Assembly (NCBI GenBank): GCA_030272155.1
Contig: CP126203.1
Coordinates: 3,348,001 to 3,412,000 of the forward strand
Origin: Tetradesmus obliquus
Lineage: Eukaryota; Chlorophyta; Chlorophyceae; Sphaeropleales; Scenedesmaceae
Length of the DNA stretch: 64,000 nucleotides
Direction of reading: 5' to 3'
Of this stretch, positions 1-54,721 are shown piece by piece. The notes beneath the pieces were generated by a model. That model saw nothing but the letters and a program-made list of their open reading frames with translations, did not search any database and was not told the origin of the DNA. A program made the translations under genes and the position numbers. Every line of letters starts with the position of its first letter. The stretch's first letter is position 1.

Positions 1-172
1 ATGAGGCAAACAACAGCTCAGGCATGTGCCTGTCAAGATGCAACGAATGCTGGAACAGATGCATGTGTGATGAGCAGCAGCAGCAGCAGCAGCGGCCAAG
101 TCACCGCACAGCCGGAGCTGGAGCCACCGCCTCAGCCTCAGCCTCAGCAACAGCAACAGCAGCCTCAGCCTT

Positions 173-207
<35 letters not shown>

Positions 208-1631
208 TGACTCACCGCAGAGCCGGAGCTGGAGCCTCCCGGCACCCTGCCTGGTGCTGCCACGTTGACTGGCGTGCCGTAATGTGCATTCTGCCCCATG
301 AGGCTGTACGCCAGCTCATCCATGTGTGTCTTGCCTACCACCTGCAGCGTTGCACGCAAAATGATTAGTAATGCTGTCCCGTGCGTTCCCATGCCATGCC
401 ATGCTGTTCTGTGCTGTGCTGTACTGTGCTGTGCTGTGCTTTCCCATGCCATGCCGTGCTTTCCCATGTCATGCCATGCCATGCTGTGTTATGCTTTCCC
501 ATATCATGCTGTGCTTTCCCATGTCATGCCATGCCATGCTGTGTTGTGCTTTCCCATATCATGCTGTGCTTTCCCATGTCATGCCATGCCATGCTGTGTT
601 GTGCTTTCCCATATCATGCTGTGCTTTCCCATGTCATGCCATGCCATGCTGTGTTGTGCTTTCCCATATCATGCTGTGCTTTCCCATGTCATGCCATGCC
701 ATGCTGTGTTGTGCTTTCACATGCCATGCTGTGCCTTTTCATTCCATGCTATGCTGCGCTTTGTTGTGCTGTCCTGTTCTAGCATTGCTGCCGATGCTCA
801 CCACTGCTCCTGCGTCCAGCAGCGCTGCCACAGGCGGCGCCGTGACGTCTGCAGTGGGGTGCGTCTGCAGCCATGAGGGACTGCCAAAGCCGGTTTTGTG
901 CCCGGCAATCTGCACAACGAGCAGAAAGATAGACAATAGTTGCATTTGGCCAGGTGCACAGTTGTTGCAAGTGCTTGGTGCTCAATTGACAAATGCATTT
1001 TGGTTGTCAAAGACCTGCTGCGGGATGTGTCTGCAGCCATGAAGGGCTGCCAAAGTCGGCCTTCTGTGCCCGGCAATCTGCTAGCCGGCAGAAAGGCGTT
1101 GGCTGCTTTTGACCGGATGCAGGGCTGTTACACTGTCGCGCTTGGTGCCCAAACGTTGCAGCTAGCATCAGCTGCCACAACGCCAAAACAACAACATACT
1201 CGGCAAGGCTGCATTCCCGCCAGGTTGTTTTGCCGTTGTTTGCTTCACAAAGCTTCCCCTCACGTCATAGAGGTTCTTCACAGCCAGCGTGAGGCCTGCC
1301 AGAGACCCTGAGGCCATGCAATGCATTCAGAGCCAGGCCCTACTTCATGCTGCAGGTTCGCACTCACAACTTCTGCCTGCTGGCTTGTCTTTGCAGACTT
1401 TGAGTCCGTCATGTCGTACAGTCGTCACTGCATACCACCGCGGCAATAGGGGCAGTCATGCGGAAATGCAGTACCATTTTCATGCCATGCTTGCACCAGA
1501 AAGTTGAGCTGGCAGCGTCACTCACATCATACAGGTCCTTCACAGCCAGCGTGAGGCCAGCCAGGGGCCCTGAGGCAGCGCCCTGCAGCGTGAACTGCGA
1601 GATGAAGCAGCCAGTGGGGTCTGAAGCGTCT

Positions 1632-1690
<59 letters not shown>

Positions 1691-2559: not shown

Positions 2560-3077
2560 ATGTTGGCCCGCAGCCTGAGCAGAGCTGTGCCGCATCACCC
2601 AGCAGCTGCAGGAGTGGCACATCCAGTAGTGGCCAGGCTGGCAGCATCCGTGCCACTCCGGCATCGGGAAAGCACTGTATCTGTAGTAGCAAAGAAAGGC
2701 AGCAACAAGACAAAAGCACCGAACAAGGCCGATCTACCAAGCAAAGTGTGAGTGTATTTGGTGGACATGCGCCTGCAGGCTGGCTGGCAGCACCTGCACT
2801 ACTGGTCACATTGAGCATGCTCCCACACAGCAGCCACAGCGATGCACCTGCAAAAGAATCACGCACAGCAGCATGTTGGCATCTTCATCAGGCTGTTCGG
2901 CTTCTGAAGTCCTTGCAGACTTCAGCTGCTCCATGCTGGCAGCTGTTGCGCTCCCCCACCCCCATCCTGTGCAACACATCCTTTCACAGGCTGTCTTCTG
3001 CCTCTGTACAGGTGTGTGACTTGCGGGCGGCCTTTCACATGGTAGGCAGCAGTCCAGCCTGTTTCCTTGACTTAGGG

Positions 3078-3144
<67 letters not shown>

Positions 3145-3825
3145 GCCTGGTCTGCCTAATGTCAGTCAGCTCGCTGCACAGCCTCTCCTGCAGCTGCCAT
3201 GAGCTGCAATACTCATCATTTCTCTGCACAGCCCGGTAACAGGCCGGGCCGCTGTATCTGGTTGACAGCTGGCAGTGCTGCAGCAGGCGGCAGCAGCAGC
3301 GAATGGTGTATCACCGCACAGAAATCCTGCAGTTCTCCCACCATGTATCAGTGTGGCTGGCGACTGGGATGTTATTACAGGTTGGATTGCATTTGCACGT
3401 CAAGCAAGCATGCTACCGTCCACCTCTGTTTGTTGCACTGGGCGCCACAGGCGGAAGAAGTGGGAAGCAGTATGGGAAGACGTCAAGTGAGCTCAAGTCC
3501 GCTCACCAGCCGTGCTTCAGCAGCAGCAGCAGCAGCAGCCGCCCAGCCTGCACAGCCTGTTGTTCAGCTGAGATTGCTCAATTTCAATGGCTCTGCATTT
3601 GAAGAGAACACCACCAGGCAGCTGATGCCTAGCTTAGCATCTCTTCACTTGACAAAGCATCTGCCTGGTGTATTTGTTATGGCAGATATGCATGCAAGGC
3701 GCATCCGGAACAGTAACACCAGCATTGTTTCACAGTGTTGCCGCTGCCGTTGCCGCTCATGCTGCAGGTACTGCAGTGACAGGTGCAGGTCGCAACGGCC
3801 CAAGGACGGCACCCTGCCGCAGTAA
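2560..3825 (+). CDS. DUF2256 small zinc-ribbon protein
   Basis: Four exons (2560-2747, 3012-3041, 3451-3486, 3768-3825) join in phase to 103 residues. The N-terminal 50 or so residues are rich in Ala, Arg and Ser and look like an organelle presequence. The rest is the DUF2256 core: LPSKVCVTCGRPFTW, then RKKWEAVWEDVKYCSDRCR. The two CxxC-like pairs (CVTC and CSDRC) are the expected zinc ligands. Family members are short proteins of bacteria, cyanobacteria and algae with no established function; in bacteria they are often near photolyase or cryptochrome-like genes. The 30- and 36-nt micro-exons hold most of the conserved core, so simple ORF calling misses this gene. Intron 2 carries a CAG run of about 64 bp. 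It is divergent from the amidase gene. Confidence 0.88.
3079..3142. repeat. (CAG)n run in DUF2256 intron 2
   Basis: About 21 CAG units on the sense strand, 40 bp after the donor of exon 2. Confidence 0.95.
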
Positions 3826-5047: not shown

Positions 5048-5576
5048 GCTTGCTGTGCTGTGCTTGTATCCCTGCAGGTGCAGACACTGGTTGAGCTGCG
5101 AGCCATTCAAATGGAGCAGCGCGGAAAGATGAGCAGATATGGACCCCTGATGGCCCTGGAGCTTGTCAAGTAAGCAGCGCTGCTGTTGCCATCATCATAG
5201 CCTGGTGCACACGCAGTGCTTAATATCACAAATACTTGCAGCCGGCTGCTTAAGCACCTTGTGCATGCAATGCTTGCTACTGCACAGCTACCGCATGTTG
5301 AGCGGGGCCAATGCACATAGTGATAACATGCGCTGTCTGGTGCGATGGCCGCTTGCAGGACGCTGCTGCGGCTGCAGCTGTGGCGCAGCAGCAAATGCAG
5401 CCTGGCACTGGAGGCAGTGTCACGCGAGGACCAGGAGCAGCACGAGTGCGAGCAGCAGCTGAAGGACCTCCTGCAGGTGGGGCGCTGTGTTGCATATACA
5501 GCAGCAGCAGCAGCAGCAGCATGAGTGCGAGCAGCAGCTGAATGACCTCCTACAGGTGAGGCACTTTGCTCAGTTC

Positions 5577-6342: not shown

Positions 6343-8225
6343 GCAGCTGCGCAGCAGTGCAAGCTGCAGTGGCAAGCACAGCAGGTGCAGTGCATGGCAG
6401 CTGGGGCCCTAGCACAAGGGAGCCGTATGGCAGGCCTGCTACCTCACACTGCTGCCCAGCTGGCAGCAGCAGCAGCAGCCTGTTTGGATTCGGCACCGGC
6501 AGCAGCAGCCAGCACCGGCAGCAGCAGCAGCAGCTGAAGCTGCAGGCGCTGCCGTGGTGCCTGTGCAGCAGAGATGATTCCATTGGGCACTCAGTACTCA
6601 AAGCAGGGGAGCTATTGCACCTGATGCGGCCGCTGCTGTATGTTTACCTGCTGAAACGCTATGGTTTAAGGTCCTGGAAGCCCTGGGTTTTGTCACTAGG
6701 GTTTGACCTGGCGTCGGGGTACGGCCTTCACACTGGGCATGCCATCCTGTGCCACAGCAACGCCAGCAGGTGGCCTCCGGGCAGTACCCTGTACAGCCTG
6801 GCACTGCTGCGCAGCCTGAGCAGCAACAGGTGAGTTTTGGTTTGTTGCAGATGGAGAAATGCTGGCTATGCGTATTGTAGAGTCGCTGGGAGTAGGTATG
6901 CTAGGTTTTGGGTGCTGTCATCGTGTAGCAGGATGGTTTTGCCCTTCGCTCAGCTTCGGCCTTGTGTGTGCGTCAACTCAACGGCTGTTTGCATAGTGCT
7001 CAGTTCATACATGTGCCTAGTGTCGAGTGGCTTGCAGTGCTCTGGTTGTGTGAACTAAGCAATTGTCACACTGCTGCTTTTTCTGCTGCTGCCGCTGCTG
7101 CTGCCAGGTGGTCGCATGGTGAGCAGGCTGAGCTGCTGGGGCGGCAGCTGCAGCTGCTGCGCTACCTGCTGCGCAGCCCCTGCTACGACGCAGTGACGCG
7201 GTGAGCGCCTGACTGCATGCATTTGAAGGTTTAGACATCTTGAAAAGAGTAATATGTAGGTGCTTGGGAGCGCATTTACATTAGATTCAGCATGCGGCGC
7301 ATCATGACGATGTGCCGAACACTGTATGGACTGACACCCAGCACGCGGCGCATGTACGTTGGATTCAGCACGCATGCGCATATGCATGGCAGCATTCACA
7401 GTATTGCCTGAGTCCCCTCTTGGCTCCTGTTGCACTGGCATTAGTGTGAGCTAATGATCTTGAGTCATCATTAAGATTGCGTACCGACGTTAGCACACAC
7501 ACGTGCTCAGCGCATCATCATCATCATCATCATCATGACGATGCGCCAAACACTGTTTAAACTGACACAAAGCACGCGGCGCATATACATTGGATTCAGC
7601 ACGCATGCGCATAGGCATGGCAGCATTCACAGTATTGCCTGAGTCCCCTCTTGGCTCCTGTTGCACTGGCATTAGTGTGAGCTAATGATTTTGAGTCATC
7701 ATTAAGATTGCGTACCGACGTTAGCAAATACACGTGCTCAGCGCATCATCATCATTATCATCATGACGATGCGCTGAACACGTGTATGGACTGACACCCA
7801 GCACAAAGGCAGCGCTGGGCTGGTGAAGCCCATGCGCAGTGGCGCCATCGTGCGCCGCCGCTGGGCCGCGGTCCAGGTCGCTGTCGCTATGGCGCAACCT
7901 GCCCCTCCCCACTCTCTCCCTCTCATCATCTGAAATAGGAGCATTCAACCTACCAATTAGGCCGTAGCAGTAGTGCCATCAGCCCCGCGATCAATAGAGC
8001 TTGTTCTTGTCCATGGGCGTCATCTTTGCATCTATCAGGCATGAACTGCTGCTGTTATGCTCCTGCTGCTGCTGTTCCTGCTGTTGCTGCTGCTGGGCTT
8101 GCAGGCGGCTGTTGCAGCGCATGGTGACCAGCAGCCGCTGGCTGCCTGGGCTGTCCAGCCTGGCAGAGTTTGCCTTCAACATGGTGGAGGGCATGCAGTC
8201 CTACTACACATACGTGGAGTGCTGA
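4527..8225 (+). CDS. PEX16: Peroxin-16 (peroxisomal membrane biogenesis)
   Basis: Six exons (4527-4772, 5078-5169, 5359-5476, 5772-6829, 7108-7200, 8105-8225) give 575 residues. The N-terminus SLLRSYKGFVRAHPGLVLN, the helix SEYAYEAFNAAVGLLGIYN, the block LRSWKPWVLSLGFDLASGYG and the tail YLLRSPCYDAVTR followed by NMVEGMQSYYTYVE match Pex16. That integral membrane protein recruits peroxisomal membrane proteins at the ER and peroxisome. Plant Pex16 is about 360 residues. The excess here is a Gln/Ser/Ala-rich insert of about 250 residues in exon 4 (about 5810-6540), encoded by CAG-rich DNA. The conserved parts flank the insert in one open frame. Exon 3 is followed by two echoes of its own 3' end, and the last intron has a 231-bp tandem repeat. 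Confidence 0.87.
5511..5637 (+). repeat. Two boundary echoes of PEX16 exon 3 3' end
   Basis: The last 45 bases of exon 3 with its donor (5432-5482) are repeated at 5511-5561 and, more degenerate, at 5581-5640. The first echo preserves GAGTGCGAGCAGCAGCTGAA and a perfect GTGAGG donor, better than the real GTGGGG. Confidence 0.85.
7290..7800. repeat. 231-bp tandem repeat in last PEX16 intron
   Basis: A unit of about 231 bp starting near 7341 recurs from 7572, with partial units on both sides, about 2.2 copies in all. Each unit includes a short ATC/CAT run and the word TTGGCTCCTGTTGCACTGGC. No coding is apparent. Confidence 0.9.
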
Positions 8226-14244: not shown

Positions 14245-17200
14245 TTAGGCCGAGGAGAAGAACTGGAAGATGAGTCCCTCGCCGCCAGCGATGTTCACAA
14301 AGAAGGGTGCAAACACCAGGCTCTCCACCGCCATGAGCTTCACCAGGATGTTCAGGGAGGGGCCGGAGGTGTCCTTGAGGGGATCGCCCACAGTGTCACC
14401 GATGACTGCGGCCTTGTGGCAGTCGGAGCCCTTGCCGCCCAGCTCGCGGGCGTGCTCGGATGCACCAGCCTGCGTTAAACGAGAAGCAAAACAGCAGCCA
14501 GGGGCAGTTGGTGAAGTACTAACAAGCGTACTTGTGACAGTCAAGCCCTGCCGCGCAGCTCGCGCGTGCTCGCATGTGTGCCGGGCCGACGCATGAGTGA
14601 GGCACGTGAGTAGCAGAAACGCAAGATTGAGTGGAAGGCAGAGCCCAGAGAACCTGCTGGGCTAAGAACGTGACTGCTAGCAACAGGATATGAGACGTGT
14701 AGCACACGAGCACCACTGTCGCGTGACACCTGCTTGGATGATTTGAGCATGGTGGCGCTATCTGGGGCCAAGGATGCACTTAGATTATATATATTGTGCA
14801 CAGCAGCAGTGTCATACACGCACACAGAGGCGGTAAGGTGCAAGCCACGCACACAGAGGCGGGGAGGTGCAAGCACCTCAGCTCTGGCTGCCACTCTGGA
14901 GTTCTAACTAACTTCATGCAGCGGGAGCTGCTTGCAGCTTCCTCTGTGACCAGGTGTTAATCGTGGCGCACGCTGCATGAACACACCATGCAACCCCTCT
15001 ATCCCAATTCCATGCACACAGCAACCACTGCAGCTGCACGCACCTCAATGTACTTCTTGGCGTTATCCCAGGCCCCGCCGGTGTTGGACATGGACACAGC
15101 CACCTGCACGCCAGACACCAGGCCGCCTGCCAGCATGCCTGCCAGGGTGCGGGTGCCAAACAGCGCACCAGCGATGATGGGGGACAGCATCACCAGGGCA
15201 CCTGCAGCACGACAACAGCAGCAGCACGATAGTAAGGCAGGGGCATTTATGAACAGCCACACCTCATAAGTCGCCAAAAAAGAGCAACATGCAACTGCGC
15301 CACCACGTGCTGCATCACCTGTGCAGCCGACAGCCCAGGCTTGTCAACTCTGCCCTTGAGTATTGCACCCCACGGCAACTGCTTCACCACAGTGTGCTCA
15401 CCAGGCGGGATCATCTCCCTCTAGGGAGGAGTTTGTAAAATCTTCGCGCAGCGGCTGTTCATTCATAGCAAACCAGAAGCGATGCAGGGGTGAACTGCTT
15501 GATTACAAGCTTGATTACAAGCTGCTTCTGTACTGTACTCACCAGGGGGGATCATCTCCCTCAGGGAAGAGTCTGTGGAGATTTTCACGCAGCGGCTGTA
15601 GTCGGGCCTTGCGGTGCCCTCCATGAGTCCGTTGATGGTGTTGAACTGCCTGCGCACCTCCTCCACCATAGCCAGAGCGGCCTTGCCGACAGACTTCATG
15701 GTCATGGCGCTGAACCAGTAGGGCAGCATGGCACCCACCAGCAGGCCCGCAAACACCTGCAATAAGCAGCAATAACAAGCATTTCAGATATTTCAAAGGA
15801 GACGACAGGTGAGCCAGTGAAGCGGGGCATTCAATACACACCACATACACAGCGACGCGCGTGATGAAGGCTGTGAACAAGAACATCCATGAAACCTGGA
15901 CATCATTGTCATCACTAACATAACAAGTACTGCACCTTGGGGTCCAGGATGGAGGACTCGAGCAGGTCGATCTTGGCCCAAGTGATGTAGGCACCAAACA
16001 GCGCCAGCAGCATCAAATGAAAAATCGCACCAAGAAACACCAACACACCTTAGGGTCCAGGATGGAGGACTCCAGCAGATCGATCTTGGCGCGTGTGATG
16101 TATGCACCGAACAGCGCCAGAGACACCAGGGCAGCGGAGCCGATGGCAAAGCCCTTGCCAATGGCAGCGGTGGTATTGCCGGCAGCGTCAAGGGCATCGG
16201 TGCGCTCACGGATGTCCTCGCCTGCGGTTCAACCATTCAAACAAAGTGACATGTTACTATTCCATGACAAGTGACAGCAGGGGATCAAGGGACTGACAGT
16301 GCGCCAACTCACATTCAAATGCTCAGATAAAGATCCAGGTGCAGGCGCACGTCTTGTACGTTCCACCTGCTGCTGTTGCTGCTGCATCACGTTTGCCGAA
16401 TCTCTTCAGTGCCGCCGCCCGTCACACGCCCAGCTGCTGCTTTTCAAAACCATGTCAAACAACTCCGGGCACTCACCCATGCCAGCCATCTCAGCGATAC
16501 CGCCAGCGTTATCAGAGATAGGGCCATAGGCATCGATGGCCAGGCCAGAAGACAGCGTGGCAAGCATGCCCAGGGCAGCGCAGGCGATGCCGAGCATTCC
16601 TGCGAGGCTGTTTGCGATGTAGATGGTGATGGCCATCACAAAGCAGGGGATGATGCAGGACTTGTAGCCCAGGGCAAGGCCAAAGATGATGTCAGTGGCG
16701 GGACCTGTGCGGCAGGCATCAGCAACGTCCTGCAAGCAAACAAGTAAACAGCATGCAAATGAGTGTCAGGCCTGCACGGTAGTAAACATGTTATGCGGCT
16801 GCTGCGCAGCTGCAACACAGCGAATGAACCCCGCAGAGCAGGCAAACATCACAGCAGTAAGCAAGGACGAAGTAGCAGTTGCTCGATAGCAGCACCCAAC
16901 AGCCTTAGCATCAGTAAAGCAACTGGCAGGACCCTGGCCCCTTCAGGTTTGCACACTTTGCGCACACATACACACCTGCACGGGCCTGTAGCGGTTGGAT
17001 GTAAAGTACTCGGTCTGCAGGCCGATGGCCAGGCCACCCCACAGGCCGCATGCCACGCACACAAACATGTACCAGTTCTTGACTGACTTGTAGTCGTACT
17101 CCTTGCCCTGTGTCCTGCTGGGCACTGGCAGCTCAAAGGTCTCTGGCAGAGACACCAGGGCCAGGCCAAGAGCAACCTGTGGGAAGAATAGGGAGGGAAG

Positions 17201-20596: not shown

Positions 20597-23500
20597 TTAT
20601 ACATTAAACCACTTCTCTTTCGGCAGCTGTGGGGCTGATGGGCTGGACACTATCTCCAGCACCATGTTGGCAGCTGCGGGCTGCTGCAGTGCCGCCACCA
20701 AAACCTCAGCAACCTGCAGTAGGCATGGCACGCAGCAGGCGGCAGCAGCGGCAATGGCAGGAACATGTGCGGAGGTGAACCAGCAGGGATGAGCAACGGT
20801 GCTTGCTTGCTAACAAGTAATCGCTTGCTTCACAGTGTTGCAGAGCAAGGTGCAGCTCTGCACGAGTGTCAGGCCTCCAGCAAGTACCAGCCTGGACCTG
20901 AGGTCGTTAAGCATTCGATCAGCTCCTCTGCCGACTGCTCACCGCCTCATCACCTTTGCGACCGCAGCGCTACAACCCAGCAGGAGCATTTTTTTTGCAT
21001 CAATCGCTTTGTCAGCATGCAGCAGCAGCAGCAGTGCTGTCAGTGTCTCCGCTGACGGCTCGCACAAGGCCGCTGTCAAGCCCACACAGGCTGTCCTGCA
21101 TCGACACAATCAGCTGCCGCATCTGCCGCTGCTAGCCATCTCTTGTGTAGGGTCTGCACCTGGCATTCACCACAGTGGAGACAGCAGCACAACCCAGCAA
21201 AATCAAATATACCATCTCCCATTTCATCTACACAGCAGCATGCTGCGCAGCGCTCACCGTGTCTCTGCTGATGGCGCGGCCAGGGTCGCTGTCAAGCCCA
21301 CACAGCCTTTCCTGCATTGCACGGCACAATCAGCTGCCCCACCTGGCGCTGCTAGTCCCCCTCTTATGTAAGGTCTGCACCTGGCATCTCGCCACCATGG
21401 AGACAGCAGCGAAACCCAGCGACATCATATATACCAGCTTTCATTTCCATATTTGCGTAGCAGCAGCACTCACCGTGTCTCTGCTGATGGCGCGGCCAGG
21501 GTCGCTGTCCAGCCCAAACAGGCTGTCTTCCTTGGACACAATCAGCTGCCCCACCTCGCTGGCCGGCTCGCTGCGCAGGCCGCCCGGCCTCACGATGGTG
21601 TAGCGCAGGCCTGAGGCACGCAGGTAGCGCTCCGCAGCCTACATAACACAAAGAACGAACCGCATGCAGCACGGAGAGACACTGAGGCACAGGAGGCTCG
21701 ACGATGTACAGGTGAAGGGTGGCCTGGCCTGACAATGATGTAGCGCAGGCCCGAAGCGCGCAGGTAGCGCTCCGCAGCCTGCAGCATGAAGCAGTCAGCG
21801 CAGCAGAGACACATCAGGTTTGGTTGCTATGTGAGGCAGTGCATGGGCCGCCTGGCCTCACAATGGTGCAGCGCAGGCCCGAAGCACGCAGGTAGCGCTC
21901 GGCAGCCTGGCGCACAGCAAGAAACACAGCAGCCACACATCTCAAGTTTGGTTGTTTTGTGACAATGTGCATGGGCCGCCTGGCCGCACGATGGTGTAGC
22001 GCAGTCCTGAGGCACGCAGGTAGCGCTCCGCGGCCTGGTGCACAGAGCGAAACACAGCAGAGACACATGAGGTTTGGTTGCTATGTGAACATTGTGCACT
22101 GGCCGCCTGGCCTGACAATGGTGTAGCGCAGGCCCGAGGCGCGCAGGTAGCGCTCCGCAGCCTGCGGCATACAAAGGTGTTTGTTTTATATACAGAACAG
22201 CATGCAGCACAGAGAAAGACTAGGACACAGAAAGCTTGTTGGAAAGAGGCGCAGGCCGCCTGGCCTCACAATGGTGTAGCACAAGCCTGAGGCGCGCAGG
22301 TAGCGCTCCGCAGCCTGGTGCATAAAGCAAAAAACACAGCAGAGACAAATCAGTTTTTGCCATTATGTGAATATCTTCCTGAAAGCCTAGGCCGCCTGGC
22401 CCATGGTGCTGCAGCGCAGGCCTGAGGCGCGCAGCGCTCCCCTGCCTGGTGCATGGAGACAAAACACAGCGGAGATTCCCAGACCAAACAGATTTGGTTG
22501 TTAAGTGAAGATATGCGGCATACAGAGATGTTTGTGATGTAACAAAGAACGGCATGCAGCACGGAGAAAAGACTAGGACACAAAAGGCTTGATGGCAAGG
22601 GGCGCAGGCCGCCTGGCCTGACAATGGTGTGTAGCGCAGGCCTGAGGCACGCAGGTAGCGCTCCGCAGCCTGGCGCAGTCAGACAAGCAACGCGCAGCAG
22701 ACATGTACAAGTAACAGAGCACGCTTGCTGGCGTTATTGAAATTGCGGGTGAGACAAAATGACACAAAGAATGTGCAGGGAGAAGCGCGGGTCAATGCGC
22801 CGCCCTGCATCCTTGAAATTGAACCTGGGCAGAGGTTTGTCTTGCAGCCAGCTTGTGACGAGTCCAGAAATTACAGAGTGTACAGAGATTGTGACATACA
22901 GTGAGCCAAGATAAGAAGTGTGACCAGCCCACCAGCAGCTCACCAGCTGGTGATCCAGCACACCACCCAGCAGGTTGAGGATCTTTCAGCAAAAGCGTGA
23001 CCAGGCCAGTTGGTGTGACATGCAGCGGAGCCGACGGAGAAGCGTGACCAGCCCACCAGTAGGGCCCGCACGCAGCTCACAATCACATATGAAATTAAAT
23101 TGATTCTTACACTAGATGCTCTCTCTAGTTTTGGTGAACTACAATGTTGAACATTGTTGTAGCTCACCAGCTTATGATCCAGCACGCCACCCAGCAGGTT
23201 GAGGATCTTTCAGCAAATGCGTGACCAGGCCAGTTAGTGTGACATACAGCGGAGCCGACGAAGAAGCGTGACCAGCCCACCAGCAGGGCCTGCACGCAGC
23301 TCATTAAATTCGTGATGAAGATTATGTTGACCCTAAACAGTAAATTAATCACTTTCATTCATTTCATATGATTGATAATAGGAAAATCAACTAATGTAGT
23401 AGCTCACCAGCTTGTGATCCAGCACGCCACCCAGCAGGTTGAGGATCTTGTAGTTGGGGTTGTTCTTCTGGCCCACTGCTGCTGCATTGGTGAGCAGCGA

Positions 23501-24524
23501 GGACAGCAGCACGAATGTGGAGACGCCCCGAGCCTTTGCAGCATTCACCAGGTTGATGGTGCCCTGCAGAACAAAAGGAGAATTTTAAGCAGCATCACAG
23601 GATGAGTCAAAGTAGGCATGACAAGGTGTCAGGTACAGCAGTGAATGTTGGCATGATACCAAAACTGTGCTGGCGGCGTGCAGCAGCGGGGTGCATGCAG
23701 CAAATCGGCCACAGCTGGGACTCTAAGGAGGGTGAGTGCATGAGCAGCCTACCAGGTCTATTGTGTGCTACTGTACATCCTTTCTGCAGGCAGCCACAGC
23801 CACCCCGCAACAGGTGGTGGCGACTCACCTTTTCATCCACTGAGGCAACCTTGAGAGGGTTCACGCCTGAGAAGCCTGTGGCGCAGATGACTGCCTGCGC
23901 GTCACCAATGGCCGCCTCAAGTGACCTGCAGCCAACATATGACAAATTTCCTGACAAACCCCAGAACACCGTCAGGCACATACTGTACATGCACATAATC
24001 ACTGTGTGGCACAGATCACTGCCTGCGCGTCACCAATGGCCGCCTCAAGTAGCCTGCAGTCATCACAGTCGACACCTCAGTTTGGCTGACGCTGCAGTGC
24101 GCAGCTGCACACACAACCGTGCCAGGCACACATCAGTACATGCACAGGCAGGCTGTAGGGTCACCAATGGCCGCCTCCAGCGACCTGCAGTCACACAGTT
24201 GACACATCGATCTTCAGACTCCAGGAGCCGTATATATTTGTCCTTTCACACCTCAACTCGGCCACCTGCTAACAATGCTCGCAGCACTGCCAGGCACACA
24301 TGGCACATGCAAAGGAAGCCTGCGGGCTTTCAGGGGCAGAAACGGTCCTTGAACCTGCACTGCCTCTCTCACACTGTCTCTCACACTGTTAAAAAACAGA
24401 AGCATTCTTCTTTGAGTTGATGCAGCCCCGCCAACTCACTTGAGGTCCTTCGTCACATCTGCCTCCACTATGCTGATGCCTGCGTCAAATGCAAAGCCCA
24501 GGGACTGAGCCTTGCGGACGTCCT

Positions 24525-36165: not shown

Positions 36166-36210
<45 letters not shown>

Positions 36211-37121
36211 CACTGTTGCACGGAAAACAGTGTTTGATACACGCATGGCAACCCAGCTTGCTGCGGTAAGATGTGGCAGCTGACTGCTGTGCTGCGGCAC
36301 GTGCACAGTAGAAGGGATAGACCATGAGGATAGGCAGCACAGTACTGTTCAAGCATGTCTGAAACAATCCTGCTGATGCCGCTGCTGCACTCGCACGCGC
36401 TGCTGCGCCTGTGCAGTACCCTCGCCCCGAGTTTGTGGCTGCTGACCTGTCCAAGGTGAAGCTGGCTGACGCGCTGGCGGCAACAAGCTTCGACCCAACC
36501 AAGACCACGCTCTTCACAGCAGGTGCGCGCATGTACAGCACAGCTGGTGCAGCAGCAACACGTAGCAATTATGTTTACATGTGACTGCTTTGCAGCAGCG
36601 CAAGCATGCACAGCATACAATGGTTTCATGTGCATGCACCATTACTGTGCACACGATCAGGCGCTCTCAGCTTCCTATGTCACTGCACTGCTCTGCTTGG
36701 ACTCACTACGTGCTGCTGTACACTGCTACTCCTGCTGCTGCTGCCGTCTGCAGAGGGCCTTGTGTACTATCTGCCGCCCGCAGCGGTGCAGCAGCTGCTG
36801 ACCTGCGTCAGCTCTAGCAGTGCGCCAGGCAGCCGGCTCATGTTTGACTTCCTGAACCTCTCGACTGTGCGCGGCGACGTATGGCACCCCGGATTCGAGA
36901 CGCTGCAGATCTCTGTGTATAACAAGGGCGAGCGCATGTACAATGGCATCGATGAGAGGCCCCAGGCGGTGCGGCGGCTGCTGTCGCTGTTTGGCTTTGG
37001 CGGCTGCTGCGTGTCAGGGGCACAGAGCATGGTGAAGCGCTACATGCCGCATGAGCAGTACTGCAGCAGGCCTCCTACAGTGAGCCCATATTTCAGTTAC
37101 GTGTCTGCAGTAAAGGAGTGA
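34128..37121 (+). CDS. SAM-dependent methyltransferase 2, paralogue of 28792-31504
   Basis: Six exons (34128-34475, 34924-35064, 35274-35387, 35837-35974, 36417-36522, 36754-37121) encode 404 residues. All family blocks are present: AAGYDTRAYRLSRPGVKFYE, FVAADLSKVKLADAL, EGLVYYLPPAAVQQLL and FDFLNLSTVRGDVW. From exon 2 onward the intron positions match paralogue 1. The N-terminal exon is a different, Gln/Ala-rich leader fused to WTWSNFVVKLYRNTLGLLKQ. Exons 4 and 5 are almost base-identical to exons 5 and 6 of paralogue 1, while the first and last exons have diverged, which points to gene conversion. Intron 3 contains a 69-bp hairpin and intron 4 a CAG run. Confidence 0.85.
35632..35700. repeat. 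69-bp near-perfect inverted repeat (hairpin) in methyltransferase 2 intron 3
   Basis: Arms 35632-35665 and 35667-35700 are reverse complements over 34 bases with three mismatches and a one-base loop. The outer arm is GTCGTCGCACTTCATGTA. Confidence 0.93.
36168..36210. repeat. (CAG)n run in methyltransferase 2 intron 4
   Basis: About 14 CAG units on the sense strand of the intron. Confidence 0.92.
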
Positions 37122-40969: not shown

Positions 40970-41786
40970 ATGGCTGATGTTGCACTGGCAGCAGCGCCTG
41001 CAGGCATAGACGACATCGCGCGCTCAGCAGCAGCACGCAAGGACAGCGGAGACCAGCACAGCGCCTTCCACAAGATAACAGAAGATGATGCAGCAGCGCT
41101 GCGCGACAACAGTGACAACCAGCTTGCAGGAGACCTGCCTGCAGGAAAGCTCGCCAGCCTGGTTTCCGGGCCGCTGCTGCACTCAGCAGCAACCATCAGC
41201 GACCTGGACACTGTGCGCGACGTGCCGTTTGACCAGCTCTGCCACAGCGGCAGCAAGCTGACCAGCAAGAACATATTCAACAAGCTGCTGTTCCGCTACT
41301 TCCTCACACCCATCAAGTAAGCATGTGTACCGCCTGTATGCAGACAACACAAGATATCTACAACAGATATTAGTACAGTACATCAGCTGCACTGGGGCTA
41401 GGCTCACCATGTTCAGCTTGCTGTGATGTGCATATCGAGTGCTGGTGCACCTGGAAGACATTCTTTATGCGAGTGGCAGCACGCAAAAGCCAACCCAAAA
41501 ATTGCGGCCCGGCCAGCATAAAGGGCTACAGCGCAGCACTAACAACACTGCGGAGTAGACGATGCAATTCAATGGCTGGCATGAAACCAGCGCGCCTCAC
41601 TGTGTATACACAACATGCAACATACACTGGCATGCAGCGAGTACCCATGCGTGCTTTGTGCCTGCTGCTGCCTGCAGGGATGTGTACCTGCCCTTCATGA
41701 CCTGGGGCCTGCCAACAAACTTCCTGATGGTGAGTCATCGTGAAGTTCAGCATGAAGTGCAGCACGGCAGATCCCTGCTGCTTGGC

Positions 41787-41848
<62 letters not shown>

Positions 41849-43021
41849 ATGTCTCTTGACGCCAAGCAAACTCCGGCCGTCATCATAGACCCTGGCACAC
41901 GCTGCAGAGCTGAAGGTCAACGCTGTGCTGCTGCTGCCACCGCCGTTACGTAATGATCTGCCGCGCAGCTCACCTTCCGCACGTACAATCGTGACTTTGG
42001 CCTGCCCAACCACAACGACGACAACCTGGCTCAAGACCTGCGCGACACGCTCATGCCAGCACGTGGCAAGCTGCACCGGGAGCGCAGCCTGTTCCTGAAG
42101 TTCAAGACAGGGTTGCTGGACACACCCTACCTGGGCATCCCTGGCATCGTGAACTTCATTGATGTGCGCACGCAGTGGTTTGATGCGGCCGTGAAGAAAG
42201 CGATCGCAGACGGCATCACACAGGTGGGTATCTTTCAATCTATGCTATGTTTATGGTATTCTATGTTCTGCTGGTGCTGTTTTAATGCGGCTGTGAAGAA
42301 AGCAGTTGCAGATGGCATCACGCAGGTGCGTCACTTTTGCGTCATGTTGTGTGGTGATGCAGGCGGCGGTTTGATGCTGCGTTTGGAGGTGCGCGGTTGC
42401 AGATGGCATCATGCAGACGTGTTCCTTTGCTTTGTTGTTGGGTGCAGGCGCAGGCGTCTTGGGACGGGACAATAGCGACTGCGCTGTACTGCTCTTGCTC
42501 CTGTTGTTGCTGGTGCTGAGCAACGATCCTGTCCTTGCAAACTGCCTTGTGTGCAGGTGGTCATCATCGCCGCGGGTTATGACACGCGCGCGTACCGCCT
42601 GGGCAAGCCTGGAGTGAAGTTCTACGAGATTGACCTGCCGCATGCCAGCGAGACGAAGCAGCAGCTGGTCAAGAAGCACATGCCAGCAGACAAGGTGAGG
42701 ATTTCACGCCGCGCAGCATGTAGGAGTGTTGCACTGGTTGGTTTGCAGTGTACATTTGTTGCTGGTGCTGTTGCTTGCCGCATGCCAGCGAGACAAAGCA
42801 GGAAGGTGAGGTTTTGACAGCGCGCATTGGCGCAGTGGTTTCCTGTGTTACCAGTGTTGCTGCTCAGTGGCAAGGGCTATCAAATTCAATGGCAGCAGCA
42901 ACCACCAGCATACCTAAACAGCGCCCTGCAAGCGGTTGTTGTCTTCCTCAGCACCCGCCAGTTCAGGCAACCTGTGGTGTGTGCAAGCTCTATGCTTGGT
43001 TGCTGACAAATCTTCCGCCGC

Positions 43022-43057
<36 letters not shown>

Positions 43058-45349
43058 AGTACACATGGCCAGAGTTCATCGGCGCTGACCTGTCTAAGGT
43101 GACACTGATGGACGCACTCAACAAGAGCAGCTGGGACAGCACCCGCAGGTGAGATTTTCCTGCTCACATCCCTAACGTTGCTGTTACTGCTGCTGATTAA
43201 TCTTCTACTTCCTCAAGCACATCGCTAGCTGCGCAAATCGCAGCCTGCTTGTGATGAACGCCAGCAATGTGTCAGATACTCAGGATACTTGAAGGAGTTG
43301 CGGGGCTCTGCAGCATGCTCGCCACAGCTGCTGTTTGCAGGCAGCGCCACTCCTGCGGTCAGCAAAGTTTTGCCATGCAGTACGGCTGTGCTTGACATAT
43401 GAACCACAGCGCAACCTGCAAGCTACTGCCTCGCATCACCAAATCGCAGCATCTGCTGCATCCATTCCAACCACCGCAAGTATGAAGCACGTAACATACA
43501 TACTAACTACATATGACTTGTTACACAACATTGTCACAACCCGCAGGACCATGTTCATCATCGAGGGCTTGGTGTACTACCTGCCCCCGGAGGCCTTCAA
43601 GAAGAGCCTCACAGGCATCAGCGAGTCAGCAGTGGATTTTCTGACATGTGACACATCACCAACCATAAATTGTTACATAACATTGTTACAAACTGCAGGC
43701 CATGTTCATCATCGAGGGCCTGGTGTACTACCTGCCCCTGAGGCCTTCAAGAAGAGCCTCACGGGCATCAGTGAGACAGCAGCGACCTTCCTGACATATA
43801 ACATGTCACTAACCCTAACATGTTATGTAACATTGTTACAAACTGCAGGACCATGTTCATCATCGAGGGCCTGGTGTACTACCTGCCCCCGGAGGCCTTC
43901 AAGAAGAGCCTCACAGGCATCAGTGAGACAGCAGTGGCTGGCAGCCGCCTCTTCTTCGACTTCCTGCACCTGGATGCGCTGTCCAACGAGATTGTGATGC
44001 CGGGCCTGGAGACGCTGCTGGTGGTGAGTAACACGGTTTGCTGCACTTGAATACATGCTTGCTCTTTGTCAACTGGGTGGTGTTTATACTCACGCATTGC
44101 GGCCCAGTCACATTGCCATGTGCTACTTTCCTTGCTGTGCCGCCTGCAGTCAGTGTGGAACAAGGGCGAGAGCATGTACAGCGGCATCGACCACCGCCCC
44201 GAGGCGCTGCCGGCTGCTGCACGGTGCTAACATCTGACATGCTGCCGTCCCTTGCCTTGTCCCGTGTCCACGCTGCTGCAAACCAACCTGGGTCTCCGTC
44301 AACCCCAAGCTAAACTTCTCACAGTACTGTGTGGTGTGTTCGCTCATGCTTTTTTAACCATACACATGTTGCTGCATTCTATGCATCCCTTCTTCCCCCT
44401 GCAGTCGGTGTGGAACAAGGGTGAGAGCAATCTCACATGTACAGCGGCATCGACCACCGCCCCGAGGCACTGCGCAGCCTGCTGCAACGTGCTAACATCT
44501 GACACGCTGCTGTGCCATCCCTGCTTTTCCATTCGCAGTCGGTGTGGAACAAGGGCGAGAGCATGTACAGCGGCATCGACCACCGCCCCGTGGCGCGTGC
44601 CGGCTGCTGCAACGGGCTAACATCTGACATGCTGCTGTGCCATCCCTGCTTTTCCATTTGCAGTCGGTGTGGAACAAGGGTAAGAGCATGTACAGCGGCA
44701 TCGACCACCGCCCCGAGGCGCTGCTGCAACGTGCTAACATCTGACATGCTGCTGTGCCATCCCTGCGTTGCTGTTTGCAGTCGGTGTGGAACAAGGGTGA
44801 GAGCATGTACAGCGGCATCGACCACCGCCCCGAGGCGCTGCGCAGCCTGCTCAAGAAGTTTGGCTTCAGGCTGCACGAGGTTATGGACGCGCAGGACATC
44901 AGCCGCCGCTACCACCCTCATGTGCAGAGCTGGAACCCGATCAAGCCTCACGTGGCGCCCTTCTTTGGCTATGTGGCGGCTGAGAAGGTGGGAAATCAGG
45001 TTCACGCACCAGTGTGGTGCGGTCAGGTTGATTCTATATTGTATCAGGTTATATCTGGTATGTACCAACAATCATCACAGGCGTTTAGTTGTCTTCTACG
45101 GTTTTTACAGCAAGGACCAGGGGCATATGATCTGGGAGACGCGTCTGCATTTTTATGTTTTCTGTGTCGTCTCCTGTGTTGCATATCTGCTGGAAGGGAA
45201 TCCCAAATCACAATCATGAGCAGCATTAGAAGTGTGTGCGCATCACGATGAGGTTGTTCTCTGGCTGATTTGTTCTGTTCTTGGTTCTGCGGTGTGTGCT
45301 GCTGCAGGTGATGGCACCCATCAAGAGGCAAGAAACAATCAGGGAATGA
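40970..45349 (+). CDS. SAM-dependent methyltransferase 3, diverged tandem paralogue
   Basis: Eight exons (40970-41316, 41678-41729, 41969-42223, 42557-42694, 43060-43148, 43849-44023, 44781-44987, 45308-45349) sum to 435 codons. Motifs are AAGYDTRAYRLGKPGVKFYE, FIGADLSKVTLMDAL, FIIEGLVYYLPPEAFKKSL and SVWNKGESMYSGIDHRPEAL. The leader exon is unlike the other two. The third exon corresponds to two exons of the paralogues, while their last exon is split into three here, so intron positions have changed. Introns 3, 4, 5 and 6 contain repeated partial copies of the neighbouring exon ends. Exons 6 and 7 were assigned to the most downstream, full-length copies; use of upstream copies cannot be excluded. 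The final 13-residue exon is supported only by phase. Confidence 0.8.
41788..41848. repeat. (CTG)n run in methyltransferase 3 intron 2
   Basis: A CTG-rich run of about 60 bp interrupted by CTA and TTG, 120 bp before the acceptor of exon 3. Confidence 0.92.
42282..42416 (+). repeat. Two echoes of methyltransferase 3 exon 3 3' end
   Basis: The last 45 bases of exon 3 with donor (real 42178-42229) recur at 42282-42331 and, broken, at 42368-42416. The first reads NAAVKKAVADGITQ with a GTGCGT donor. Confidence 0.9.
42770..42812 (+). repeat. Echo of methyltransferase 3 exon 4 segment
   Basis: CCGCATGCCAGCGAGACAAA recurs from exon 4 (real 42638-42660) and is followed by a GTGAGG donor-like site, but the 3' part of the exon is missing. 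Confidence 0.75.
43023..43059. repeat. (CTG)n run forming the acceptor of methyltransferase 3 exon 5
   Basis: About 11 CTG units run directly into the CAG acceptor, so the microsatellite is itself the 3' end of the intron. Confidence 0.92.
43500..43795 (+). repeat. Two echoes of methyltransferase 3 exon 6 5' end
   Basis: Units of about 150 bp hold the intron end (ACATTGTTACAAACTGCAGG) and the first 80-85 bases of exon 6, coding FIIEGLVYYLPPEAFKKSLT. Acceptors lie at 43546 and 43699; the full exon begins at 43849. Both echoes break off at the same point, just after GISE. Confidence 0.95.
44145..44745 (+). repeat. Four echoes of methyltransferase 3 exon 7 5' end
   Basis: The acceptor plus about 70 bases coding SVWNKGESMYSGIDHRPEAL recurs with starts near 44150, 44405, 44539 and 44664 before the full exon at 44781. 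Each breaks off at the same place into GCAACGTGCTAACATCTGAC intron sequence. The first copy would end with a stop shortly after, giving a truncated alternative C-terminus. Confidence 0.95.
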
Positions 45350-49991: not shown

Positions 49992-52900
49992 AGGCCTCTC
50001 AGCTCCAGGCTCTGGCTCTACTGCTGGCGCTGCTGCTGGCGCAAAGGCTGCTGCCAAAGGCGCTACAGGGGCCACATGCACCTGTAGCTGCTGCTGCTGC
50101 TGCTGCTGCTCAGGCACCCCTTGAGCTGGCACATCCCCTTGCGCTGATGACTCTGATCGACTGTTTGCGGCAGCTGCTGCAGCACCCTCAGCTGCAGCTC
50201 CACCACCACCAGCAGCAGCAGCGGCCTTCGCAGCAGCAGCGGCAGCCTTGCGTGCCGCAGCAGCTGCCGCGCGCTTCTCCGCCGCTGCCGCAGCCTTCGC
50301 TGCCCGCTCCGCAACGCCCGGCACCGCCGCCAGCCCGGCTGCTGGCGCCTCCGCTGCGCCTGCCGCTGCCGCTGCCCGCGTGGCGGCACGCGTCGCCCGC
50401 GGCGGCGAGCCGCCGCTGCTGCCACCTGCAGCACCGCTTATGCTCAGCCTCTGCAGCTCCAGCTGGGTGCTGTACTGCTTGAAGCGCTGCTCAAACTTTA
50501 GCAGGGCAGTGAGGCTGCTCCAGTGCCTGCAATGGATCTTGTCGACTTTTGCGAGCACGCCGCGGGTGAACTTGTGCAGCTCGAGTGAAGCTGGCTTGGG
50601 CAGCGGCGGCGGGGGCGCGCCTTGCAGCACAGACATGACTGCTGCAGCGCACTCGCCCACGAGACTGACAGTGATGACGTACAGGCAGCATGGACAGACA
50701 CAGGCAGACAGACAGAGGGATAAGATGGATGTGAGACGGCGCCAATGGGTGTTGGACCATCGTGGCAGGCACACCAGGGAAGCTGGCGCTGCGTACAGCA
50801 ATGATAATCAGCTATTCAAACCAACCCCACCACCTTGCGCCCGGCGTGCTGCTGCAGCCACACAAGGAAAGCTGCCACCAGCCAATCAGCCTCCAAATAG
50901 CCAAACCTACCTGGGCACGTAACCGCCCTCCAGCACCGCTACAACCTTGCCGCCGGCGTGCTGCTGCAGCCGCTGCGTCATGGCCGCAAAGCCAGCCGGG
51001 CTCACACGGCACAGCCCCAGGAAGTCGCCATCAGCAGCATCAAAGCCCGCAGATATCAGCACCAGCTGATGGTGTAGTTGCCACGTGCGCAGGCAGGCGG
51101 GCAGCAGCAGCGGACATGTCATGTTAAGCTGCTGAGACGCACTAGCAGCCAACAGGTGTCAGCACCAGCTGCCGTTTTAGCGACAGCCAGCAGCCAGGCA
51201 GCCAGACAGCCAGTCAGCCAGGCAGGCAGTGGTAGCAGCCGCCGGGCTCACGCAGCACAGCCCCAGGAAGTCGCCATCAGCAGCATCAAAGCCCGCAGAT
51301 ATCACCAGCTGTTGTTGCGGTACGCGCAGGCAGACAGGCAGCAGCAGCAGCAGCGCACATGTCAAGTGAGCTGCTGAGACGCACTAGCAGCCGCTAGGTG
51401 TCAGCAGCCAGCTGTCATTTCAGCAACAGCCTGCAGGCGGGCAGCCAGTCAGGCAGTGGCAGCAGCAGATGTCAGCTGCTTATGAGCTGCTAATGCGCGG
51501 CAGCGCCCGCCCCCCGCCCCCCAAGTCGTCACAGGGCCCAGGCACACCGAGATCCAGTGCGCGGCTACACCGGTGCTGTAACCCGCAGCTGCGCTGCTTG
51601 TAATCTATCAAGCCAGTACAGCAGGATATGTAACTGTTGCAGTGGCTCAAACAACTGAACCCACAACGCTCGTGCCCCAGAGCACTGCGCACCTGCGGGT
51701 CAAACTGCTCGATGATGGGCTGCAGCAGCAGGTCAAAGGCTGCCATGTAGTCTGCGTCCCCCATGCCCTTGCTGCTCCAGGGCACATTCACGTTGAAGCC
51801 TCGCCCATGGCCTGTGCCCACCTCCTCTGCAAACCCGCAGCCCTGCGGGGTGGAGCGGTGAAGCGAGGAAAAACATAGGGTGCAGGGTGGGGCAGATGTA
51901 ACGATGACTTGAACTTGGAATCAACAGTTGTGGAGGTGATGCACGGCAAAGAGCCGACGCAGACATGCAGAAGGACTATCCCCGCAGCGCGTAGATACAG
52001 CTGCTGCAGGGGGATGCAAGCAAGACAGGCATGTCGGGTCACACCGTGCATGGCATGGTGATGCCAGCTGCACAATGCAGCATGTGCAAGCACCCGGCAG
52101 GGCAGCTGGAAAAACTGCGGCAGTCAGATGCTAGCAAACACATGCAAGCTGGGATACCGCATGGCAGCAGCCGGCATCTACAGCAAGTACAGGACGCGCA
52201 GCATGACTGGTTGCACCCTGGCAATGCTGTGCTGCATCACACCTTGGGATAGAAGTTGCCGTCCCTGCGGTGCAGCGATACAAACAGCACCCGAGGGTCC
52301 TGCAGGAAGATCTGCTGCGTGCCATTGCCGTGGTGGATCTGCGCAGGGCAATGCAGGGCAGCATGTGTGGCCAGGCATCAGTAGGCATCAGCGTGACGAG
52401 CAGAGGGGCGGCTACTGATCATGGTGCACACAGCTTGCAGGAAGCATACTGGTATGCAGCGCTTTAGTGACTGCAAGTGCAGCGTCAACCAGCTGGCACT
52501 CTGGCAGATATAGCCTCAGGTCAGCTGGATGCTGTTCAAGCAAGTTTGGCTGAACAAGCAGGTGCAGCAGTTCGGGTGCTAGCGGAAAGTTATGCACGCG
52601 TGCACTCACGTCCCAGTCAAGGATCAGCACTCGCTCCACCCCTGCAGAGCAGCAATGACAGCGCCTTCGTCAGTGCTTTTGGATCCCAGAGAGCAGAATC
52701 TGTCAGCTAGCAGGAGTGTCAGCAGCGCTACCCTCCTTACGCCAACAGCACGGAAAGGACACACGCGCTGCAGACATGACAGCTGCCGCTGATGCGCGCG
52801 TCACTACCCTTGCTAGCAGCCGGCTGCTGCCAAGCGCACCTGGCTGCTCCAGCGCAGCATGCGCCGCCACTGCCACGTTATTGAAGAAGCAGAATCCCAT

Positions 52901-54721
52901 CAGCTCCTGTGACTCTGCATGATGCCCTGGGGGCCGCACAATGGCAAAGGCGCTGCTGACCTGGCCTGACAGCACAGCACACACCGCCTGCAAGGAGGCG
53001 AGAAGGTTAACGCGCATGCAGCAGCAGCACCTTAGTAAGGTCAGCCTGTTTATGCACAGCGCAACATTCCAGAACACCACAGATGTTGAGAACACAGAAA
53101 ATGGTAGTGTTGCAGGCACAGAGTGTTGCAGGAACGTCGATGGGTGTAACAATGGGTCACACCAGCAAGGCACCGCCGCTGGCGCTGCACACCGTGACAC
53201 GCCAACAGCCGGTCACACTGACAGGGGACAACATGCGCGCACAGCACGGTGTGAAGAGCCAACGAGAAGACAGAAGAAGCTCTGCTGTACCTGCACGCAG
53301 CAGCCTGCCGCACTCCTAGCAGCCATGCTGGTGTGCCTGTTGCAGTAGATGTCGCTGCTAATGATAAAGGTGTCACCAACTTGCTCAGCTGGCTGGCCTT
53401 CGGTGGTCACTGGATTGCTGTAGAGCCCATCGACCTGTAACAAGCAGCAGCAGCAGCAGCAGCAGCAACGGCAGCAGCAGCATGTGCCACGTGGAATGTT
53501 AGTCTGTGAGGTATTGCACAGTCGACTGACAGATGATGGCAGTGTCAGCGTGCATGGTCGTTTGAGGGTGCAGCTCTTGTTGCAAGCATACTTGTGAGGT
53601 GGCTGCAACTGCCAAGACCACGCTTGCATGCCTGTGACTGTTGCAAAGACCTTGCAGCTGCAGCAATCGTATTCCTGATCATCCTGCAGCTGCACGTGTG
53701 AGGATCTGAAGCGCGGTGTTGCACACCAGCACAGGACCCAACTTGCACACTTGCACAGTTTAGCACGTGCACAACAACAAACATGTATGCACAGCACCTT
53801 GACCACCAAACCTCACCCTGTCAATGTGTGCCCTGCTGTGACATTTGAGCAGCTCTTCATCAGTTGCCTGCAGAAGAGAGAGCACACAAAAAGACAGTTT
53901 TGTCTCCTCGTGCCGGCAGGTGGCATGCACCTGCTGTCTGACTCAAGACCCAACGCTGCAGAACCGCAGGACCCAAAAGCTACGCCAGGGCGTTGCGTCA
54001 GCAGCAGCAGCAAAAGTCACGAGCTGCATGTGCAGAGGAGGTCAGATGACGAAGAGGGGCTGATAGGCTGAGGTCATCAACTGCTGCTGCAGCTGCTGCA
54101 GCTGTGCTGCGCATGCTCACCAGCTTGGGTGTCAGCCTGGTGCACTTGCTGAGCAACCCTTCCCGCTCCAGCCTGCTGCTGAGCTCCTTGATGCGGTTGG
54201 GGTGCTCAGGATGGCCTGCGCGCTTGCAGGAACAGGCGTATGTGTAAACTGGCTGCAGGAAGGGCATGTGTGGCTGTGCATGTGCAAAAGGCTGGAGCAC
54301 GATGTGCACTGCTTCCATGTCCAGGTGCTGCTGCAGCTGCTGCTGCGTCTTGCCGAATTTACTTGCAGGAAACTAAGCTTGGCAAAGGCATGCTCACGTG
54401 CGCAACACTGCAACGTTTAAACACACCCAGAGGTCGAGAGTGGCAGCCTGTAAGCATGGCCCCACCTTCCCTCATGTGCAGCTCCATGACAGCATCATAC
54501 ACAACACCGCAAGAGCCCCTGGGGGCTGGCATGCTTGTGTTTTGAGCATCTGAAACAGTGTGGGCTTGGCCCTGTCCTAGCTCTGGCAAAGCAGAGCTTG
54601 CATCATCCACATCAGCATGGATGCTGATGCAGCGCTGACTGCTCTTGCTGGGAGCGGCACTGCTGTGCACTTCATGTGGCTCCGAGCTGGATACGGGCTG
54701 TCCAAGAGTGTCAGCACTCAT
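48621..54721 (-). CDS. Class II histone deacetylase with long Ala-rich C-terminal tail
   Basis: Ten exons (54466-54721, 54121-54215, 53817-53867, 53291-53434, 52808-52987, 52610-52633, 52243-52338, 51693-51842, 50911-51065, 48621-50664) sum to 1065 codons. Domain blocks in order are [64 protein letters not shown] plus [44 protein letters not shown] and LEGGYVP. The catalytic His-His pair, the zinc ligands (Asp and His of DWDIHHGNG, Asp of AGFDAADGD) and the transition-state Tyr of EGGY are all present, so the enzyme should be active. After the domain comes a helical segment ([20 protein letters not shown]), then about 570 residues of Ala, Gln and Pro. The junction of exons 5 and 6 is the weakest: it uses an atypical acceptor. 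Class II HDACs are lysine deacetylases of nucleus or cytoplasm. Confidence 0.87.
51242..51312 (-). repeat. Echo of HDAC exon 9 5' end
   Basis: A copy of the acceptor and first 65 or so bases of exon 9 ([16 protein letters not shown], real copy 50998-51065), about 245 bp upstream in the gene. It keeps the zinc-ligand Asp codon. Flanking intron words (GAGACGCACTAGCAGCC) also recur at 51133 and 51377. Confidence 0.92.
53441..53482. repeat. CTG-rich run before HDAC exon 4 acceptor
   Basis: On the sense (minus) strand CTG units lead into the TTACAG acceptor at 53435. Confidence 0.85.

Follow-up and report, generated by a model that had tools for sequence, protein, structure and literature searches.

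Why should the introns of several unrelated, neighbouring genes contain diverged copies of the ends of their own exons? The question was raised by a stretch of 64,000 nucleotides of the Tetradesmus obliquus genome (C13:3348001-3412000; the genome comprises 104.66 Mb in 17 contigs), which we call the window. A first-pass annotation made from the letters of the window reported such copies, termed boundary echoes, in the genes for an amidase, PEX16, an H+-PPase, an SDR, the third of three methyltransferases and an HDAC, and each of the six genes does hold copies of exon ends in the adjacent intron. The echoes are probably the remains of frequent local duplications across exon-intron junctions, which were tolerated and have since decayed in a nearly neutral way.

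The sample analysed was 344 kb in 15 blocks: the window and 14 blocks of 20 kb from 14 other contigs, all cut at 1.00-1.02 Mb of their contigs. Exons were predicted with a semi-Markov gene finder whose codon model was seeded by four hand-read exons; this seeding replaced an unsupervised training which drifted to CAG-repeat micro-exons. The gene models (361 exons in 46 multi-exon genes with a score of at least 10) have clear donor and acceptor profiles. Gene ends are modelled poorly: the genes for HDAC and methyltransferase 3 are both broken up, and for the latter the model stops at an echo copy, 44150-44223, wrongly taken as an exon. The analysis therefore relies on exon edges, not on gene ends. 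Predicted genes with a score below 10 or a single exon were excluded. Exons had to reach a coding score of 5 and to have at least 30 unmasked bases, and 23 predicted exons which are copies themselves were merged into introns before counting. Echoes were searched for by Smith-Waterman alignment of each exon with its adjacent introns. CAG/CTG runs are frequent in this DNA, and low-complexity masking covers 9-29% of each block.

When the exons were aligned within their own genes, as the first-pass annotation had proposed, 65 of 365 exon sides had a copy at a score of at least 36. At the same score the controls gave no copies: 0/365 for the reverse complement, 0/1825 for introns of other genes and 0/337 for non-adjacent introns of the same gene, the latter represented by random stretches of equal length. 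In the window there are 20 echoes on 134 exon sides and none on the reverse complement. At a score of at least 38 there are 100 echoes carried by 54 of the 201 exons tested, or about one exon in four, spread over 22 of the 46 genes and 12 of the 15 blocks with the window counted, and the occurrence of echoes beyond the window is in this way borne out. The blocks on C2, C3 and C8 hold no echoes, and the base composition is unusual in those on C2 and C3. The block B03 (L008-L009) is very uneven in GC content (49% and 68%) and has no echoes.

The copies are local and of one orientation. Repeat pairs within 3 kb of each other are direct in 331 cases and inverted in 11, and a search of the 104.66 Mb genome, simple repeats skipped, with a 239-bp methyltransferase array including its intron part found the home locus only; the genome-wide echo search covered this one array. 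A second genome search, with an H+-PPase exon which has no echo, found a single copy; this speaks only against there being another, diverged version of that gene. Reverse transcription or mobile elements might also place exon copies in introns, as retrocopies, which are joined exons placed elsewhere, or as introners, which are similar intron sequences dispersed over the genome. The non-adjacent introns of the same genes held no copies, the one array searched was not dispersed, the echoes run in one orientation and the young ones mostly carry intron sequence, which together leave such an origin with next to no probability. The earlier preference for local duplication over retrotransposition is thus upheld. 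A plain tandem event for every echo is not, since many copies do not abut their source and in many the intron part is missing.

The position of an echo depends on which end of the exon is copied. Among 52 hits with a score of at least 48, all 26 copies of exon ends lie downstream and none upstream, 16 copies of exon starts lie upstream and one downstream, and the others are five full exons and four interior pieces. An echo donor is GT or GC in 27 of 29 cases and an echo acceptor AG in 15 of 17, which agrees with the claim that 5' echoes carry acceptors and 3' echoes donors. These sites are no proof of function, since neutral decay at the divergence seen would also spare most of the dinucleotides. 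That no echo is a full exon is true of the window list, whereas the sample as a whole has five full copies among its 57 echoes scoring at least 44. Tandem exon duplication, which can give mutually exclusive exons, leaves exon copies adjoining the exon. The echoes differ from this, as only those five are full and the spacings have no frame bias; the majority cover part of the exon and, to be used as exons, would each have to possess another splice site of their own.

The mechanism we propose starts with a local duplication, mostly of 100-250 bp, which would straddle an exon-intron junction. If the acceptor is straddled, a surplus intron tail and exon start would be left upstream; if the donor is straddled, a surplus exon end and intron start would be left downstream. 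One intact junction would stay joined to the remainder of the exon, so that a normal mRNA could still be made and the surplus would become intron. Since the intact junction is kept on the exon side, the rule that acceptor copies lie upstream and donor copies downstream would follow by itself. The surplus copy, splice site included, would decay almost neutrally, and some arrays may grow and swap sequence by further unequal exchange. Four elements of this scheme are inferred: the lesion behind the duplications, a filtering by tolerance, the exchange of sequence among copies, and an origin of the old echoes, too, as whole units.

The middle half of the 100 echoes lies 73-265 bp from the exon. The first-pass annotation held that identity tends to fall with distance, which the larger sample contradicts (rho 0.05, p 0.63, n=100); in comparisons on the same side the nearer echo was more similar 18 times, the farther 18 times, with three ties. 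The distribution of spacings between local direct repeats climbs steeply at about 100 bp, has its maximum at 100-150 bp and shows two further rises, near 220-260 bp and near 360-400 bp. The higher peaks are partly multiples within arrays. Introns with an echo have a median length of 481 bp (n=54) against 307 bp (n=237) for those without (p 1.7e-5). This is compatible with the suggested intron growth, although the comparison does not separate a cause from an opportunity: the greater length may be due to the echoes, or long introns may offer more room for them.

Exons and echoes differ by 9.3% on average. The copies are therefore distinct sequence, and an assembly artefact is extremely unlikely; the pieces of a read-through discussed below are also found in a deposited T. 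obliquus protein, perhaps from the same strain. The pairwise mismatches fall at third codon positions in 215 of 334 cases (64%), and in echoes without an intron-part match in 131 of 185 (71%). Such figures could be taken to mean that the echoes are functional, being alternative exon ends or cassette exons under selection, and with this would agree the mostly intact splice sites and a public gene model which uses an echo donor. The apparent selection outlasted the removal of CpG sites (12.2% vs 3.6%) and of predicted cassette exons. It did not outlast a parsimony analysis of the 22 exons with several echoes, in which the changes could be placed. Third positions account for 28 of the 35 changes on the exon lineage (80%) and for 29 of the 36 variants common to several echoes, but for 65 of the 156 changes private to one echo (42%; 24/47 in the nearest echo and 41/109 in farther ones). 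As the excess sits on the exon lineage and on the shared variants, it is the exon which is selected, while each echo is nearly neutral. The exon is under purifying selection, and its echoes preserve its past silent states and then decay nearly neutrally; purifying selection on the echoes themselves, which had been a candidate, was dropped on this result.

Other observations speak against a coding function of the echoes. Indels are frameshifting in 15 cases and in-frame in two, and the spacings modulo 3 (17/16/13) show no preference for the frame. A cassette exon would need a donor at its far end, and one scoring at least 5 was found in only 3 of 17 5' echoes (the mean for real donors is 6.9); four of five 5' echoes inspected had no donor above 2 anywhere up to the exon. 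A Scenedesmus acutus protein discussed below contains no echo sequence. Functional echoes are accordingly very unlikely. Read-through isoforms as a general reason for the echoes were likewise unsupported: the exon frame is open to read-through in 11 of 46 cases, the other frames in 28 of 92.

Duplication across the junction predicts that intron is copied along with exon, and in the majority of young echoes intron sequence is indeed present. When the junction echo closest to the exon was taken on each side, its intron part matched in 9 of 13 cases with an exon part at least 95% identical, in 6 of 16 where that identity was 90-95% and in 4 of 23 where it was lower. The loss of the intron part reads as ageing, though it is faster than the exon part would predict. 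Exon-exon duplications, which number seven against 15.0 expected by random placement within genes, also speak for the proposed mechanism. Two counts given below rest on subsets: that of junction echoes without an intron-part match on the 46 of 57 echoes which have a clear junction on the expected side, and that of spacers on the 42 of these with a spacer of 25-260 bp.

It should be noted that several results weigh against the duplication of whole units followed by neutral decay. No intron-part match was detectable in 27 of the 46 junction echoes, and 27 of the 42 spacers lack a second copy within 3 kb; if the exon half is taken as the measure of a plain neutral clock, the intron half fades too fast. 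Among 28 pairs with at least 92% identity 19 do not abut but have 24-786 unmatched bases between the copies, while 9 abut or overlap, and three of the 28 span 3, 4 and 12 bp more than their spacing; low-complexity masking shortens some of the alignments in this count. The placement of the pairs is not random either. Among 81 genic pairs 57 are exon-intron against 29.7 expected by random placement within genes, and 17 are intron-intron against 36.3; a smaller exon-intron excess is still found among the pairs with at least 91% identity (11 against 5.9, n=18). Exon copies stay recognisable for longer because one side is constrained, and this can account for part of the excess. Finally, the 42% of echo-private changes at third positions compares with about 34% expected from base-specific rates, and the pairwise share exceeds the 51% derived for a neutral echo; the placing of changes removes most, perhaps not all, of the pairwise excess. 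The pairs which do not abut, the fast loss of the intron part and the excess of exon-intron pairs could stem from introns which turn over rapidly, from conversion of the exon half or from a duplication which seeks junctions.

A junction-seeking process would be one which is drawn to exon-intron boundaries, for instance by R-loops or splicing-coupled nicking, or which copies the exon end and the splice site with little intron. It would explain the excess of exon-intron pairs, the spacers without a local second copy and the similar pairs which do not abut. It would also explain the identity profile of 29 3' echoes, in which the exon side stays at 86-95% within 30 bp of the junction while the intron side, at 92% over the first 3 bp, is down to 44% at 10-15 bp. 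Several pairs which the models call intergenic look by eye like unannotated exon ends, so the link with exons may exceed the count. But the exon-only pattern is commoner in the older echoes and so looks, in part at least, like an effect of ageing, and intron-intron duplications of the same size occur too (17 arrays). We regard a junction-seeking process as unlikely. Exon-only copying was set aside as a general origin, most of the clearly fresh echoes including intron, although the copies are separated in 19 of the 28 similar pairs.

Gene conversion between exon and echo would keep the exon half alike after the intron half has decayed. It would be an addition to junction-crossing duplication and not a replacement for it, and we hold it to be a fair way short of established but quite possible. 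The support is circumstantial and comes from two comparisons. In the paralogous methyltransferases 1 and 2 exon 6 is identical at 106 of 106 positions (30759-30864 and 36417-36522) and exon 5 at 95%, while the other exons are 79-94% identical where aligned and no local match between the introns exceeds 29 bp, a pattern which looks like exon-limited homogenisation. In an array of seven copies in the SDR gene the copies are mosaic, with all four combinations occurring at 5 of the 10 pairs of variable sites which they share, though these could also arise by recurrent mutation. Conversion alone would by an argued estimate give at most about half of the differences at third positions, below the 64-71% seen. 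If duplication were aimed at junctions, or if conversion kept the exon half, the introns would be a reservoir of exon-end variants, with splice sites that look functional, exchangeable with the exon. This is a rather unlikely outcome, but such a reservoir would speed silent change and feed splice-site turnover.

One gene outside the window, coding for glutamate-cysteine ligase (GCL) on contig C5, could be compared with known proteins. Its spliced exons match the Scenedesmus acutus protein P0002 over the full length with an identity shown as 100%, the one residue which differs being at a hand-made join of two exons; the T. obliquus proteins P0003 and P0001 match at 99% and, owing to an insertion, 89%. 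The S. acutus protein, which contains no echo sequence, presumably rests on cloned or expressed sequence, as its listing has no genome contig. The T. obliquus protein OEZ86_012514 (P0001) has 49 extra residues which the other eight aligned proteins lack. They correspond to an open read-through of 147 bases from the exon donor to the echo donor (L012 in block B05, 3273-3419), and those pieces of the 49-residue stretch which were looked for lie between the two donors in our sequence. Either the gene was mispredicted here or the read-through represents a rare isoform. The suggestion that echoes may act as decoy splice sites has here a concrete case, as one public gene model takes an echo donor; other T. 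obliquus gene models may err like OEZ86_012514, which appears to take the echo donor as real.

Three GCL echoes carry the residues N, F and G at three sites, and among the aligned proteins (of which P0010 does not align at the third site) only those of T. obliquus and S. acutus share them. Residues restricted to this lineage point to an origin, or a last exchange, within it; judged from these residues, the three echoes most probably arose, or underwent their latest exchange with the exon, after the split from Scenedesmus sp. NREL 46B-D3. A diverged allele or another species as the source of the GCL echoes was set aside on the same residues.

The first-pass annotation knew of no named process that would produce such copies, but related events have been published. 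In an excerpt of Ma, Lan and Niu (2016, PMC4974935) a tandem genomic duplication across an intron-exon boundary is described for a potato RdRp gene. As given there it was one event by which a new intron came to be spliced out, whereas in the T. obliquus gene models the surplus junction stays inside an existing intron and many genes are affected. The same excerpt, in which Gao and Lynch 2009 and Hellsten 2011 are cited, treats the Rogers type of intron gain, in which an exon piece containing AGGT is duplicated. Both this and the echoes would be local tandem duplications which leave the peptide unchanged; as far as the excerpt goes, the Rogers-type source is exonic and an intron is born, while the echo source spans an existing junction and the intron merely lengthens. 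Small tandem duplications at DNA breaks, formed by Pol alpha-primase fill-in and end joining, are the subject of PMC8355091, which in its excerpted part cites Vaughn and Bennetzen 2014 for patch-mediated breaks in rice. Such duplications resemble the echoes in being direct, local and genome-expanding. The insertions described in that part are short (<100 bp), whereas here spacings of 100-150 bp are the most frequent, a further rise follows near 220-260 bp and many copies do not abut.

Judged from titles and the openings of abstracts, we found no description of the echo pattern in the Scenedesmaceae, and the words intron, exon and tandem are absent from PMC12571836. Single cases of such an event are on record; it is how densely the echoes occur that looks new. 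According to Table 1 of PMC5966456, the part of that source used here, the mean intron of T. obliquus is 462 bp against 230-302 bp in Raphidocelis, Monoraphidium, Chromochloris and Chlamydomonas, and the echoes are one candidate cause of the long introns. If about a quarter of the exons genome-wide carry decoy junctions, T. obliquus would be a natural laboratory for the choice of the spliceosome between nearly identical sites, and likewise for intron lengthening and for rates of small local duplication.

The echoes of the window are given in Table 1. Pfam, run on hand-trimmed predicted proteins, identified the amidase (PF01425), PEX16 (PF08610), the H+-PPase (PF03030), an SDR-like NAD(P)-binding protein (PF13460), an LCM-type methyltransferase (PF04072) and a histone deacetylase (PF00850), and confirmed a transporter beside these six. 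The 20 window echoes are distributed as two in the amidase, one in PEX16, three in the H+-PPase (one interior), ten in the SDR-like gene and four in methyltransferase 3 (one interior). Four copies of the last exon start in methyltransferase 3 and one HDAC 5' echo stand outside the 20 because the models break there. The PEX16 echo is CAG-rich and was detected under light masking only. The HDAC exon start near 51074 was read by eye, and the upstream intron looks partly copied as well.

Table 1. Boundary echoes and their source exons in the window (positions in the window)
Gene	Feature	Source	Region	Strand	Basis or remark
Amidase	exons 802-909, 1526-1629		802..1629	-	Pfam and exon/intron alignment
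Amidase	5' echo 1015-1077	849-909		-	exon/intron alignment
Amidase	3' echo 1265-1314	1527-1576		-	exon/intron alignment
PEX16	exon 5359-5476; 3' echo 5520-5555	5441-5476	5359..5555	+	
H+-PPase	3' echo 15936-16007	exon 16049-16221	14413..16221	-	
H+-PPase	3' echo 15402-15458	exon 15543-15756		-	
H+-PPase	near-5' (interior) echo 14531-14576	exon 14245-14469		-	
SDR-like	5' echo array	exon 21474-21638	21474..22669	-	
SDR-like	5' array junctions 21778, 21906, 22034, 22161, 22314, 22445, 22669			-	AG precedes each
SDR-like	3' echoes 23168-23209, 22944-22985	exon 23408-23563	22944..24184	-	
SDR-like	5' echoes 24005-24050, 24160-24184	exon 23829-23925		-	
Methyltransferase 3	3' echo 42278-42325	exon 41969-42223	41969..42325	+	
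Methyltransferase 3	short interior echo 42776-42801	exon 42557-42694	42557..42801	+	
Methyltransferase 3	5' echoes 43547-43635, 43700-43782	exon 43849-44023		+	acceptors and intron tails copied
Methyltransferase 3	copies of exon start at 44150, 44404, 44538, 44663	last exon 44781-44987	44150..44987	+	
HDAC	5' echo 51268-51317	51022-51074	51022..51317	-	90.6% identity, spacing 246 bp

The three LCM-type methyltransferase genes are tandem paralogues on the plus strand (28792-31504, 34025-37079 and 40970-44987). Within the gene models numbers 1 and 2 have no echo, and the copies therefore do not follow from the sequence of the exons by itself.

Other repeats were seen in the same DNA. The amidase model contains a minisatellite (427-774; 6.3 copies of 55-bp units with a 20-bp sub-period) between the exons 171-341 and 802-909. 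In the PEX16 model a 231-bp unit at 7300-7804 (2.2 copies, 91% matches), between the exons 7177-7200 and 8105-8183, is a fairly recent intronic tandem duplication. In block B03 (L009, 6096-6372) an exact 71-bp direct repeat occurs 206 bp apart, and the enclosed segment of 135 bp is tRNA-like to the eye.

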